Positions 19,361 to 25,039 of a stretch of 41,392 bases of DNA are shown here, one piece after another. The translations under genes were made by a program, and so were the position numbers. The number at the start of each line of letters is the position of its first letter. Positions within the stretch are counted from its first letter, which is position 1. This stretch comes from Hyphomicrobiales bacterium (GTDB lineage Bacteria > Pseudomonadota > Alphaproteobacteria > Rhizobiales > Rhizobiaceae): NCBI GenBank assembly GCA_900472785.1, contig UCJH01000067.1, positions 1 through 41,392 on the forward strand, in the 5' to 3' direction. The notes beneath the pieces were generated by a model that was not told the DNA's origin, did no database searches, and worked only from the letters and a program-made list of their open reading frames with translations.

Positions 19361-21688
19361 TCAGGCGCTGTCGGGGATGCGCACCGAAATGATGGTGCCG
19401 ATGTTCTCGGCGGAATAGATCTTCATCGCACCACCATGAAGGTTGGTCAGCGATCGGGAAATGGCAAGCCCGAGCCCCGATCCACCCTTGCTCTTGGCAT
19501 ACTGGCTTTGCACCTGCTCAAACGGCTGACCGATCTTTTCAAGCGCCGCGCGCGGAATGCCGATGCCGGTATCGGCAATGGTGAGCGTGACCGCGCCCGA
19601 AACCTTGCGGGCTCTGAGCGAAATCTTGCCGCCCTCGTTGGTGAACTTCACCGCATTCGAGAGCAGGTTCAGCAGGACCTGTTTCATCGCGCGCCGGTCG
19701 GCATTCATCGTCAGGCCGGAGGAAATCTGCTGATCGACACAGATGTTCTTCTGGACGGCCGGAATGGTGGTGAAGCGCAGCGTTTCCTCGATGAGCGGCG
19801 CCAGATCGATCGTTTCGCGCGTGATCTTCATGTGACCCGCTTCGATCTTCGACATATCGAGAATGTCGTTGATGACGTTCAGCAGGTGTTTTCCGCTTTC
19901 ATGGATGTCACGGGAATATTCATCGTATTTTTCCGAACCGAGCGGCCCGAACATCTGGTTCTGCAGGATTTCCGAAAAGCCGAGAATGGCGTTGAGCGGC
20001 GTGCGCAACTCGTGCGACATGTTGGCAAGGAATTCGGACTTTGCCCGGTTGGCGCCTTCTGCCCGTTCCTTTTCCGCCTGATAGTTGGAGTTGGCGACCG
20101 ACAATTCGGATTTCTGGCGCTCCAGCGTCATGCGCGACGTCGAGAGATCGCCGATCGTCGCCATCAGCCGGCGCTCGGATTCGCGCAGGCGCACCTGATG
20201 GCGCTTGAGAAGGGTGATGTCGGTGCCAACAGAAACAAGGCCGCCATCGCGGGTCCGGCGCTCGTTGATTTGCAGCCAGCGCTGGTCGGCGAGCTGTACT
20301 TCCGACGTCTGCGAATGGTTGGAGCGATCCGGATCGGCAATGCGTCGTTCGATGATCGGCCGCGCCGCGGCGGCCGCCACGGCCGAGCGCTCGGTGCCGG
20401 GCACCAGCGCATCGTCGGGCAGGGCGTAGGCCTGCTGGTAGTGCGTGTTGCACATCACCAGGCGATCGTTCTTGTCCCAGAGCACGAAGGCCTCGGAAGT
20501 ACATTCGATCGCGTCGGCCAGCCGCTGGTCTGCCTCGGCATACCGTTGTGCAAGGCGATGCTGTTCGGTGACGTCCATGGCGATACCGATCAGATGCATG
20601 CGGCCGGAGGACGTCCGGATCAGCTGGGCGCGGGCGCGCAGCCAGACATAGTGGCCATCGGCGTGGCGCATGCGAAAAACCTGGTCGATCTGCTTGACGT
20701 CGCCTTTGGCGATCGTGCGGGCGACCTTGTAGATGCCGTTGTCGTCGGGATGCATGAGGCGAGCCGCGTCGCCGAACGACATGACGTTGGTCTGCGGCCC
20801 CATGCCGAGCATTTCGTACATGGAGCGCGACCAGAACAGCCGGCGGTTCTTCATGTCGAAATCCCAAAGGCCGCAGCGTCCGCGCGACAGGGCGGTTTCC
20901 ACGCGCAGGTTGGATTCCGCGAAGATCGCATCGGCGTCGCGCGCCCGTTTCGCCTGGATGTAATAGGCATAGAGGATGACGAGCAGGATCGCCGATATGC
21001 CGGCAAACAGCGTGACGTTGAGGGAAACCTCGTCGCGCCAGAGTTTTTCCATCAGGGTAAGCGGCGTGGCGACGAGAACGGTGCCGACGCCATCCGGCAT
21101 CTGGGTCAGGACGACGACATGTTCCGCGCCGTCAACGAAGGTCCGCATCAGGGTGGAGCGTTCGCCGAAATACTGAAAAGCGGCCACTTCGGGCGCGATG
21201 GTGGCGAGCGAGCGGCCGATGTAGCCGATGCCCTTTGCGGAACTTGCAAAAACCTGGCCGCCTTTCTGGACGGCTAGAATGAAGGAGCCCTGGTTGAGCA
21301 GGTCAGGGGTCAGATAGGTGGAAAGGCGCTGCTCGACCTCCCAGCGCTGCCCCTTCGCAAACAGCGTTTCGCTGTCGGTTTGGAGTGCTGCGCTCGCGGT
21401 TGCGGCTGCCAGCATGGCCGTCTGGCTGTAACCGGATTCCATCCGGCTATACTCGACCATGATTCCGCTGATCCGCGAAATCGCCACCACCATCAGAAAT
21501 GCGATGATCAGGATCGGTATCGACCGCTTCAACAGCGGCTCCGCCCGCGAGAGGCGCAGTGCTGCCGGTTCCGTGAAAAGCCTCGCGTGCTGGATGACTT
21601 CCTTTTCCAGGGCCGAAAAGCCCGGGAATTTCAGTCGCAGCCGTCCGTCGGCTGCGCGTCCCCGCCGCGCGTCCGCCATCTTTGTCAA
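19361..21688 (-). CDS. pleC: PleC-like PAS sensor histidine kinase
   Basis: A 775-aa membrane kinase. Membrane segments lie at about 54-75 and 225-246 with a periplasmic domain between, then two PAS domains (about 270-385 and 390-500), a coiled linker, and HisKA with His559 in NMSHELRTPLNAILGFSEIL. The ATPase domain has NLLSNAVKFTNEGG, DTGIGIP and GGSGLGLAISRSL. The H box continuing into FSEILQNQMFGPLG is typical of the PleC/DivJ family that controls DivK and the CtrA pathway, and synteny after glnE agrees with S. meliloti pleC. The chosen TTG start at 21688 has AGAGGG 7 bases upstream; an ATG at 21679 is possible but is spaced worse. Confidence 0.8.
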   Translation of the reverse strand: MTKMADARRGRAADGRLRLKFPGFSALEKEVIQHARLFTEPAALRLSRAEPLLKRSIPILIIAFLMVVAISRISGIMVEYSRMESGYSQTAMLAAATASAALQTDSETLFAKGQRWEVEQRLSTYLTPDLLNQGSFILAVQKGGQVFASSAKGIGYIGRSLATIAPEVAAFQYFGERSTLMRTFVDGAEHVVVLTQMPDGVGTVLVATPLTLMEKLWRDEVSLNVTLFAGISAILLVILYAYYIQAKRARDADAIFAESNLRVETALSRGRCGLWDFDMKNRRLFWSRSMYEMLGMGPQTNVMSFGDAARLMHPDDNGIYKVARTIAKGDVKQIDQVFRMRHADGHYVWLRARAQLIRTSSGRMHLIGIAMDVTEQHRLAQRYAEADQRLADAIECTSEAFVLWDKNDRLVMCNTHYQQAYALPDDALVPGTERSAVAAAAARPIIERRIADPDRSNHSQTSEVQLADQRWLQINERRTRDGGLVSVGTDITLLKRHQVRLRESERRLMATIGDLSTSRMTLERQKSELSVANSNYQAEKERAEGANRAKSEFLANMSHELRTPLNAILGFSEILQNQMFGPLGSEKYDEYSRDIHESGKHLLNVINDILDMSKIEAGHMKITRETIDLAPLIEETLRFTTIPAVQKNICVDQQISSGLTMNADRRAMKQVLLNLLSNAVKFTNEGGKISLRARKVSGAVTLTIADTGIGIPRAALEKIGQPFEQVQSQYAKSKGGSGLGLAISRSLTNLHGGAMKIYSAENIGTIISVRIPDSA

Positions 21689-21704: not shown

Positions 21705-21793
21705 GATTCGTCGCGCCGCTCGCTCGAATCTAACCTAATGAATCAATTGTGATTCGCCTTGTCCAGAGGAAAACGTAAAACTTTGTTAACCAT
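21705..21793 (-). promoter_or_regulatory. pleC upstream region: GANTC cluster and CtrA-type half site
   Basis: Four GANTC motifs, the target of the CcrM cell-cycle DNA methyltransferase, lie at 21705-21709, 21726-21730, 21740-21744 and 21751-21755. The last two form a perfect dyad GAATCA-N4-TGATTC. TTAACCAT, an 8-mer associated with CtrA binding, is at 21786-21793. All lie 17-105 bp upstream of the kinase start. Binding and methylation are inference. Confidence 0.55.
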
Positions 21794-21897: not shown

Positions 21898-24546
21898 TTA
21901 ACCCTTGAGCATGCGCTCGACAATGTCTCCGACATCCGGGGAGAGCTTTTTCGCCGCCGCGATCTCGCGCAGAGCATTTCGGGCATGCTCCGCCCGGCCT
22001 TCTTCCAGCGATCGCCAGGAACGCATGGACGTCAGGATACGGGCGGCGAGCTGCGGATTTCGCGGGTCGATATCGAGAATCTGCTTTGCCAGGAAGCGGT
22101 AGCCTTCGCCGTCGGCACGATTGAAGCCGGTCGGATTGGAGAAGGCGAAGGTCCCGACAAGCGCACGCACGCGGTTCGGGTTGTTGCCGTTGAAGAGCGG
22201 GTCGCTCATCAGCGCCTTCACGCGGTCCAGCGCGCCCGGGCCTGGAATGGTCGACTGGATCGTGAACCATTTGTCGATGACCAGCGCATTTTCGGCAAAG
22301 CGCTGCTTGAAGGTCGCCAGCGCTTTCGCTGTTTCCGCAGTGTCGGGGAAACGATGGGCGAGAATGGTCAACGCCTGGCTGAGATCCGTCATGTTGTTGG
22401 CGGCTTCGAAGGCGTGCACGGCGCGCTCGGGCAGGTTTTCGGCATAGACGAGGTAGGAGAGGGCGGCGTTGCGCAACGCCCGTTTGCCGGCACTTGCCGC
22501 ATCGGGGCTGAAGGCGGCAGTGTCCGCCGCGCGCTCCACCAGCGTGGTGAAAATCTGGCGTCCGGCTTCGGCAATGGCCGTCATGATTTGCTGGCGCCCG
22601 GAATGGATGGCGTCCGGGTCGTTATTGCTGCCGATTTCGCGTGCGATATCAGCCTCGCTCGGCAGGGCAAGCGCCTGCGCCCGGAAAGCCGGCTCCAGCG
22701 TCTCGTCGGCTGCCGCCGCCAGGAGGGCGTCGATAAGGGCGGCATCGCATTCCACCGGCTGATCTGCCTTGGCGCTGGCTGCCGCAGCCACGAGATTGGG
22801 CAGGGCGAGATCGTTCAAGGCCTGCCAACGGGCAAACAGATCGCTTTCGAAACGTGCGATATGGGCGCGGTCCGCAGACGTCTGTTCGAAATGCAGGTTG
22901 ATCGGCGCTGAAAAACCGCGGTTGAGCGATAGAACCGGACGGGAAGGGATGTTGGAGAAGGTGATGGTCTGTTTGCGCTCGACGAGATGCAGCACATCGC
23001 CGGTGACTTCTGCGCCGGCTGCCTCCGTCACCTTCACCTCCGAGCCATCCTCCAGCAGCAGGCCGACGCGCAGCGGAATGTGCATCGGTTCCTTGCTGCT
23101 CTGGCCGGGTGTCGGCGGAACCATCTGTTCGAGCGAAAGGGTGAAGGTTTGCTTTGCCGCGTCGTAAGCCGTGGAGGCGCTGACCAGCGGCGTGCCGGCC
23201 TGATGATACCAGAGCGAGAATTGCGTCAGGTCGCGTTTGCTAACCTCGGCGAAGCAGGCGACGAAATCCTCGATCGTCACGGCCTGGCCGTCATGCTTCT
23301 CGAAATAGAGATCCATACCCTGTTTGAACAGATCGGCGCCGAGAATGGTGGCAATCATCCGGGTGACTTCCGAGCCTTTCTCGTAGACCGTCGTCGTGTA
23401 GAAGTTGTTGATCTCGCGGTATTTGACCGGACGGACAGGGTGGGCAAGCGGGCCGGCATCCTCCGGGAACTGCTCGGCCTTCAGGTGCCGCACTTCAGCG
23501 ATGCGCTTGACGGTGCGCGAGCGCTGGTCGGCGGAAAATTCGTGGTCGCGATAGACCGTCAGGCCTTCCTTGAGGCAAAGCTGGAACCAGTCGCGGCAGG
23601 TGATGCGGTTGCCCGTCCAGTTGTGGAAATATTCATGCGCGATGATCGCCTCGATATTGGCGTAGTCGGCATCGGTCGCGGTTTCGGGATCTGCGAGAAC
23701 GTACTTGTCGTTGAAGACGTTGAGGCCCTTGTTCTCCATCGCACCCATGTTGAAGTCCGAGACGGCGACGATCATGAAGATATCCAGATCGTACTCACGA
23801 CCGAACACCTCCTCGTCCCATTTCATCGAGCGCTTCAGCGCGTCCATGGCGTAGGTGGCGCGCGGTTCCTTGCCGTGTTCGACATAGATCTTCAGCGCGA
23901 CCTCGCGGCCGGACAGGGTGGTGAACGTATCTTCGACGACGCCGAGATCGCCCGCCACCAGAGCGAAGAGATAGCTCGGTTTCGGATGTGGATCGAACCA
24001 GGCGGCAAAATGCCGGCCGTCGCCCATGCCGGCGCCGCCGAGATAGTTGCCGTTGGAAAGCAGAAGGGGAGCCGTCGCCTTGTCGGCGATGATGTTGACC
24101 GTGTAGGGGGCAAGCACATCCGGACGGTCTGGAAAATAGGTGATGCGGCGGAAGCCTTCCGCCTCGCACTGGGTGCAGTAGACGTCGCTGGTGCGGTAGA
24201 GGCCCATCAGCTTGGTGTTGGTCTGCGGCGAAAGCTCGGTGGTGATCGTTATCTCGAACGGCGCCGTTTCCGGCAACTCGCGGATGGTCAGCGTTTTTTC
24301 CGCCGCGTCGTAATTGGCCGCCGGGATTTCCTCCTGGTCGAGAAGGAGGCCCGTCATCTTCAGTTCGTCACCGTCAAGAACGAGCGGAGCGCCCGCATCC
24401 ACGCCCTCGCGGCGATGGAAGATCAGCCGCGCCTCGACCTTGGTTTCCGATGGATCCAGTTCGAAGGTGAGATCCACTCTTTCCAAAACGAAATCTGTCG
24501 GCCGGTAGTCTTCCAGATGAATGATTTCGCCGGTGTCTGTGCGCAT
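21898..24546 (-). CDS. pepN: Aminopeptidase N (M1 metallopeptidase)
   Basis: An 882-aa zinc aminopeptidase of the cytoplasm that removes N-terminal residues from peptides. The exopeptidase motif GAMENKGLNVFN is followed by the zinc site HEYFHNWTGNR (first ligand about His304) and the downstream glutamate in LKEGLTVYRD. The N-terminal beta domain begins YRPTDFVLERVDLTFELD, as in E. coli PepN, and the helical C-terminal half is complete. The ATG at 24546 was chosen because CAGGA lies 7-8 bases upstream; the ATG at 24564 has GGGAG directly abutting it and adds 6 residues. Confidence 0.95.
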   Translation of the reverse strand: MRTDTGEIIHLEDYRPTDFVLERVDLTFELDPSETKVEARLIFHRREGVDAGAPLVLDGDELKMTGLLLDQEEIPAANYDAAEKTLTIRELPETAPFEITITTELSPQTNTKLMGLYRTSDVYCTQCEAEGFRRITYFPDRPDVLAPYTVNIIADKATAPLLLSNGNYLGGAGMGDGRHFAAWFDPHPKPSYLFALVAGDLGVVEDTFTTLSGREVALKIYVEHGKEPRATYAMDALKRSMKWDEEVFGREYDLDIFMIVAVSDFNMGAMENKGLNVFNDKYVLADPETATDADYANIEAIIAHEYFHNWTGNRITCRDWFQLCLKEGLTVYRDHEFSADQRSRTVKRIAEVRHLKAEQFPEDAGPLAHPVRPVKYREINNFYTTTVYEKGSEVTRMIATILGADLFKQGMDLYFEKHDGQAVTIEDFVACFAEVSKRDLTQFSLWYHQAGTPLVSASTAYDAAKQTFTLSLEQMVPPTPGQSSKEPMHIPLRVGLLLEDGSEVKVTEAAGAEVTGDVLHLVERKQTITFSNIPSRPVLSLNRGFSAPINLHFEQTSADRAHIARFESDLFARWQALNDLALPNLVAAAASAKADQPVECDAALIDALLAAAADETLEPAFRAQALALPSEADIAREIGSNNDPDAIHSGRQQIMTAIAEAGRQIFTTLVERAADTAAFSPDAASAGKRALRNAALSYLVYAENLPERAVHAFEAANNMTDLSQALTILAHRFPDTAETAKALATFKQRFAENALVIDKWFTIQSTIPGPGALDRVKALMSDPLFNGNNPNRVRALVGTFAFSNPTGFNRADGEGYRFLAKQILDIDPRNPQLAARILTSMRSWRSLEEGRAEHARNALREIAAAKKLSPDVGDIVERMLKG

Positions 24547-25039
24547 CGGATATCCTGCTTGCATCTCCCGTGACGTCAGACGTTTTAGGCGATGGCGGTG
24601 ATGGTGGAAAGGCCGTCGTGATGAAATAGCACGATGGTCTATGGGGACGTCGGTTGGATCTGATCGACCGGAGCAGCCTGTCGGGCCGCCCCCGACCGAG
24701 CCATTCCGGCGGTAGTGGAACGCAGATTTACAAAAATCGCCCTAACAATATTTAAATTGACTCATTTTTTTTAGCTTTGTCGAAACAATTTTAATTGGAA
24801 GCCCCGTTTCGGCGTCGCCACATTCGATACTGCTCAGCAGCAGCGACCCCTGCGTCATCGAAGGATTGGGCTGGCCCATCAAATATTTCCGGCCCACATC
24901 ACGAAAATTGATCCAACTTCCTTTATCGCCACGCTACTATAATGGCGAGTCCCGGCGGCAAATCCTCTGTCGCATTTCCCATTGCAGCCTGTCGCTTCCG
25001 ATATCCGGCCCGCTGCCGCAAGTCAGACGAGCCAGACGC
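24547..25039. other. Divergent intergenic region between pepN and DMT transporter gene
   Basis: About 490 bases with no convincing gene. It contains a TGACGTCA palindrome at 24571-24578, a small hairpin (GTCGGG at 24680-24685 with CCCGAC at 24691-24696) and an AT-rich segment at about 24728-24800 that stands out from the GC-rich surroundings and probably holds promoters. No clear -35/-10 pair was identified. Confidence 0.5.

Follow-up and report, generated by a model that had tools for sequence, protein, structure and literature searches.

In Caulobacter, promoters under CcrM and GcrA control (ctrA P1, mipZ and podJ) carry GANTC sites near the −10 and −35 elements in an extended motif (PMC3667746). 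The locus analyzed here shares these features and belongs to the same circuit. Caulobacter ctrA P1 has one such site and mipZ two (PMC3667746), while at the pleC-like gene described here and its relatives we count 2 to 5, with a register that most of the order retains. More than one GANTC within 50 bp upstream was reported for only 11 of 96 Caulobacter cell-cycle start sites with GANTC (PMC4287350). Another rhizobial cell-cycle regulator likewise has a GANTC cluster in its promoter, namely A. tumefaciens gcrA with six sites in 250 bp (PMC11514494). Differences exist as well: in A. tumefaciens, methylation reduces gcrA promoter activity (PMC11514494), and the gcrA cluster of the genome studied here is spaced otherwise than that of pleC. 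An earlier count of GANTC sites in alphaproteobacterial cell-cycle promoters drew no conclusion about control (PMC2877005). Binding to pleC has already been published for GcrA in Caulobacter and for CtrA in rhizobia. What appears to be new is the phased GANTC array at pleC and its persistence over most of the order; the open-access literature, with subscription papers and supplements outside our scope, yielded no description of it.

The window, i.e., the whole stretch of 41,392 nucleotides that was analyzed, is a single contig of a 5.38 Mb draft genome. Its closest titled relative in the homologue scan was Pararhizobium antarcticum, with 95% identity over the kinase. A first-pass annotation of this DNA had called the kinase PleC-like, in agreement with its domains (PAS_3, PAS_7, HisKA and HATPase_c) and with its homologues, 23 of the 120 listed being named cell cycle sensor histidine kinase PleC. 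Among the best 25 NCBIfam models listed, no equivalog cut-off was passed, the best being DivJ with 232 of 1000 bits. The GANTC cluster lies in the 218-bp gap between pepN and the kinase gene, both on the minus strand. Of 109 order-level loci, 92 also have pepN upstream of pleC, so this synteny is old. In two genomes (G015 and G017) the pleC match came in pieces, with a TGA in G015, possibly due to frameshifts or assembly errors. The features of the locus are as follows, with offsets counted from the first base of the TGGACA hexamer to the first base of each site.

19361 to 21679, minus strand: pleC-like histidine kinase gene, 772 aa from the ATG at 21679; alternative in-frame TTG start at 21688
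21705 to 21709, offset +56: GANTC site 4 (GATTC), in the predicted leader; YGAKTCK match on the other strand
21726 to 21730, offset +35: GANTC site 3 (GAATC), at the expected transcription start; AGATTCG, not a full YGAKTCK
21736 to 21742, minus strand: predicted −10 region, TTCATT (17-bp spacer) or TCATTA (18-bp spacer)
21740 to 21744, offset +21: GANTC site 2 (GAATC), overlapping the predicted −10; not a full YGAKTCK
21751 to 21755, offset +10: GANTC site 1 (GATTC), in the predicted spacer; CGAATCA on the kinase strand, YGAKTCK match on the other strand
21760 to 21765, minus strand: putative −35 hexamer TGGACA, conserved in relatives
21776 to 21790, plus strand: CtrA-type box TAA-N7-TTAAC (GTTAA-N7-TTA on the kinase strand), starting 25 bp upstream of the −35
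21898 to 24564, minus strand: pepN, aminopeptidase N (TIGR02414, 1207.6 bits), upstream neighbor of the pleC-like gene

The four GANTC sites in 51 bp that the first-pass annotation had reported are thus all present, and its statement that such a cluster is far above chance was borne out by a background of about one GANTC per 785 bp in the own genome (14% sampled). This sample of 760,692 bp, window included, has 1.27 GANTC per kb and is non-random, as contigs were partly chosen for kinases, gcrA and ccrM. In the window itself GANTC is strongly avoided, since we counted 61 sites versus 219.9 ± 11.8 in dinucleotide shuffles. Four GANTC within 51 bp occur at three places in the sample, each time upstream of a gene (pleC, gcrA and a Ku-like gene), where uniform scatter would yield 0.03 in the sample and 0.22 per genome. 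At gcrA (contig 26, L211:268-304), GACTC, GAGTC, GAATC and GAATC fall within 37 bp at offsets 0, 13, 22 and 32. On contig 111 (L204:1518-1562), four GANTC in 45 bp lie directly upstream of a gene that we take, from its sequence, to resemble the DNA repair protein Ku; a second similar gene follows downstream.

Read on the kinase strand, the cluster looks like a promoter of fixed register. A spacer of 17–18 bp would place the −10 at 21742–21736, which puts site 1 in the spacer, site 2 on the −10 and site 3 at the start; transcription would thus begin near site 3. The −35 reads TGGACA in 72 and TAGACA in 4 of 76 distinct Rhizobiaceae upstreams, and it is also conserved in an alignment of 48 blocks, the rows of which had, however, been selected by T[GA]GACA. 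In 40 loci of other families the −10 consensus is TCAAAT. Spacings between the array sites are near-helical (10–11, 14–15 and 21 bp). A simple consensus promoter scan did not call the pleC promoter at TGGACA and proposed a weak promoter further upstream instead (TTTCCA/TATCAT, 21839–21810).

The architecture of the array is conserved. Our first Rhizobiaceae set comprised 80 upstreams, i.e., 79 titled homologue records, some titled only Rhizobiales bacterium, plus the window; L086 was dropped, its match being cut off. All 80 anchor on the −35 and keep sites 1, 2 and 4. In the 76 distinct sequences these three are GANTC throughout (76/76), site 3 is GANTC in 44, and 18 have an extra GAGTC. A regular expression for the array at offsets +20/+21 matched 25 times in 815,934 bp of first-set loci, always at the pleC promoter. 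In part of the Sinorhizobium/Ensifer set (L046, L047, L049, L051-L053, L055-L057, L060, L061, L076 and L097), roughly 80–100 extra bases separate site 4 from the pleC start codon and the array is kept.

In a broader set, each genus was represented by one genome, which gave 80 of the 87 non-own Rhizobiaceae genomes with a match; 5 of the 87 were left out. When site 2 was required, 69 of the 80 upstreams passed, as against 0 or 1 per 80 in 20 shuffle sets and none on the reverse strand. With freer anchoring on any two GANTC within 64 bp after a −35-like hexamer, 78 of the 80 genera have at least two sites in register. Among these 78, a site is found at +10 in 73–74, at +20 to +22 in 69, at +35 to +37 in 65–66 and at +54 to +57 in 30–31, and these four register windows hold 240 of the 248 GANTC counted in the 64 bp. 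The extended YGAKTCK form was seen at site 3 in 41 of 66 genera and at site 2 in 18 of 69. In L339, L340, L354, L360, L364, L368, L370, L373 and L379, site 2 is absent and GANTC at +10 and +35 is kept; sites 1 and 3 can therefore persist without the −10 site. The first-pass annotation had named absence from close relatives as the refuting outcome, and its idea came through this check strongly: the sites are in register across Rhizobiaceae and also in most families of the order examined.

For the order, we collected 109 upstreams of the best kinase match from 125 non-own genomes matching at E ≤ 1e-80; the other 16 of the 125 gave partial matches and were left out, and orthology here means best match, not a tree. 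The −35 together with sites 2 and 3 was found in 89 of 109 upstreams and in 34 of 37 families, with none on the reverse strand and none in 10 sets of shuffles. Because sites 2 and 3 are themselves part of this anchor, two less restrictive tests followed. Anchoring on the −35 and YGATTCG only (86 loci) gave GANTC at site 2 in 84, with an N of T (68 loci), A (12) or C (4). N thus differs from T in 16 loci, while none deviates by one base in the G, A, T or C positions and two are without the site; this is the pattern expected of a methylase site. Anchoring on the −35 and site 2 only gave 98 anchors, 85 of which have GANTC at site 3.

Outside Rhizobiaceae, 90 of 105 loci anchor and 85 have at least two sites in register; the four register windows hold 219 of 235 GANTC in the 64 bp after the hexamer. 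In the 90 anchored loci, site 1 occurs in 38, site 3 in 86 and site 4 in 7. Site 3 has the YGAKTCK form in all 86 and T at its N position in 82, set against a background of 205 of 908 GANTC (23%) in YGAKTCK form in the own genome; at site 2 the form is not enriched (24/88). Where site 1 is present it is mostly GATTC (27/38). The first-pass annotation had pointed to a perfect GAATCA-N4-TGATTC dyad, which does exist at 21740–21755 but is not the conserved unit, since in other families site 1 is mostly GATTC whereas the GANTC register stays constant. In the 40 loci of other families with the commonest spacing, columns away from the block have 0.12–0.16 bit, while columns +22, +25 to +28, +34 and +40, none of them used for selection, reach 1.4–2.0 bits. 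All 15 genomes behind the unanchored loci have GcrA and RAMA matches; loss of the array therefore does not track loss of the readers.

Beyond the order, looser regular-expression arrays occur upstream of the three best non-order kinase relatives (L222-L224), equalled by 4, 2 and 3 of 1000 shuffles, respectively, which is suggestive only; the other 26 of 29 non-order loci gave no such array. A profile built solely from the sequences of 48 blocks of other genera, window excluded, gave only chance-level matches outside the order (9 of 151 other class genomes at E 0.02–0.1, with stricter filters). Against the own genome, the same profile hit one place at E ≤ 10, the pleC promoter (E 1e-7), with 150 of 647 first-look candidates scored; on this scoring it did not match the own gcrA cluster. 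Within the genus, the pleC promoter was the best match in 26 of 26 genomes, and six further matches had E 0.02 or more. A BLAST search of the own genome with a 111-bp stretch found no second copy and 15 other short matches, the best at E 0.28. Within the limits of these searches, the array hence appears unique to pleC in its own genome.

The CtrA-type motif proposed by the first-pass annotation, TTAACCAT, is found at 21786–21793 as one portion of a complete CtrA-type box. In S. meliloti and Brucella, promoters bound by CtrA, that of pleC among them, have the same TAA-N7-TTAAC upstream (PMC4433202, PMC3616915, PMC2877005). Of the 76 distinct Rhizobiaceae upstreams, 69 have the full box, which stands at one distance in 68 of them. 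Unlike the GANTC register, however, it is common in this first set and not across the family or the order: in the one-per-genus set 17 of 69 genera have a full and 8 a half box, and of 89 order-level loci 12 have a full and 29 a half box, with 0 and 2, respectively, in a control stretch. S. meliloti CtrA binds the pleC promoter in ChIP-Seq, yet CtrA depletion did not significantly change pleC expression (PMC4433202). The box could be a second input to the pleC promoter in Rhizobiaceae. Of the control by CcrM, GcrA and CtrA that the first-pass annotation had envisaged, comparative evidence speaks for the CcrM/GcrA part, and the CtrA half is weaker because S. meliloti pleC is unchanged on depletion.

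We consider it likely that the cluster forms the pleC promoter core and that this is a conserved promoter of CcrM/GcrA type. GcrA is known to help open complexes at weak promoters. In the proposed mechanism, 2–5 GANTC stand at fixed −35 offsets, i.e., in the spacer, across the upstream end of a weak −10, on the start itself and some 20 bp inside the leader. CcrM would methylate these sites late in replication, and GcrA, as partner of sigma-70 RNA polymerase, would be recruited by methylated sites of YGAKTCK type and help to open a −10 whose second base is not A. The passing replication fork would leave the sites hemimethylated and so change pleC transcription once per cycle, and the CtrA box just upstream would add a second input in Rhizobiaceae. 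The own genome encodes GcrA (contig 26, G000:C26:54602-55123, 212.4 bits) and a RAMA-domain, putative CcrM-type protein (G000:C119:19088-19375); across the order, GcrA and RAMA matches were each found in 146 of 150 genomes.

Published data bear on this model from both sides. In Caulobacter, GcrA needs CcrM to bind efficiently at 80 loci, pleC being one of them (PMC3667746), and start sites that have GANTC between their −10 and −35 are switched on at 40–60 min (PMC4287350). That Caulobacter activation is tied to TGATTCG or YGAKTCK is a hypothesis cited in PMC7987155. Against the model count the GcrA of B. subvibrioides, which has no YGAKTCK preference (PMC7987155), and the E. meliloti cell-cycle gene promoters, which are not enriched in GANTC (PMC8725594). 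The main texts of the A. tumefaciens CcrM-depletion study (PMC11514494) and of the B. abortus GcrA ChIP-seq paper (PMC6813329) do not name pleC. Our own data also count against it in part: YGAKTCK is unenriched at site 2, incomplete at site 3 of Rhizobiaceae and missed by site 3 of the window, the simple promoter scan overlooked the site, and 15 of 105 non-family loci have no anchor. Methylation, GcrA action and timing at pleC would all be expected under the model, with activation as the preferred direction; the direction of the methylation effect is uncertain because that of A. tumefaciens gcrA is a lowering (PMC11514494).

Full methylation over the −10 and the start might instead directly hinder sigma-70, so that hemimethylation fires pleC and GcrA is dispensable. 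This has been proposed for A. tumefaciens gcrA, the promoter of which loses activity on methylation, in E. coli as well (PMC11514494), and the pleC sites do sit on the predicted −10 and start. Steric hindrance, however, has no need of the strict YGAKTCK at site 3 in other families (86/86), which points to a reader such as GcrA, and Caulobacter GcrA binds pleC (PMC3667746); we therefore regard direct repression as rather unlikely. Still less probable, in our view, is a conserved sigma-70 promoter of the ordinary kind, whose GATTC serves an unknown factor as part of its site, methylation being incidental. The nearly fixed N of site 3 would fit such a promoter, as would the fixed N of sites 1, 2 and 4 in the first Rhizobiaceae set and the conserved flanks of site 2. 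Yet the order as a whole shows different bases at the N of sites 1 and 2 with G, A, T and C unchanged, arrays differ from each other by complete GANTC units (2 to 5 per array in the one-per-genus and order sets), and GANTC is avoided in the window overall.

A leader RNA structure or a small ORF, with the dyad as hairpin, has very little left in its favor, as comparison across the order already contradicts it. A stem of 6 bp could form from GAATCA-N4-TGATTC, but outside Rhizobiaceae most loci no longer have the dyad, shifts of one base in the spacing (20/21, 35/36) would break any reading frame, and the window has no Rfam match at gathering score. The dyad or hairpin as functional unit was rejected on the changed orientation of site 1 outside Rhizobiaceae. 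In Ensifer, GANTC is roughly twice as frequent in the DNA between genes (PMC8725594), but chance clustering in AT-richer intergenic DNA has a negligible probability given an array conserved over families and matched by no array in shuffles.

Most likely, then, the CcrM/GcrA-type promoter of pleC is old and has a CtrA box in addition in Rhizobiaceae. More tentatively, and with some doubt on our part, we may speculate that the array is an ancient, hard-wired reader of several m6A marks, read jointly by GcrA and sigma-70, and that this link predates the radiation of the order. If the marks are read together, pleC would answer sharply to replication of its own locus. Published work describes fast rewiring of targets: only 6 of 75 candidate direct CcrM targets of A. 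tumefaciens are matched by an orthologue in the direct regulon of either C. crescentus or B. subvibrioides (PMC11514494), and for replication and division genes the predicted control by GcrA was described as well conserved within Caulobacterales and not beyond (PMC7987155). A multi-site reader would mean, contrary to this, that the CcrM-GcrA-PleC link was fixed early. The pleC array could also serve as a compact, testable model for the reading of several m6A marks in one promoter. The conserved sites suggest that pleC responds as a switch to how newly replicated DNA is methylated, and if this holds true, methylation sites kept in register before a kinase that feeds back on CtrA would be a conserved anchor of the CcrM/GcrA network.
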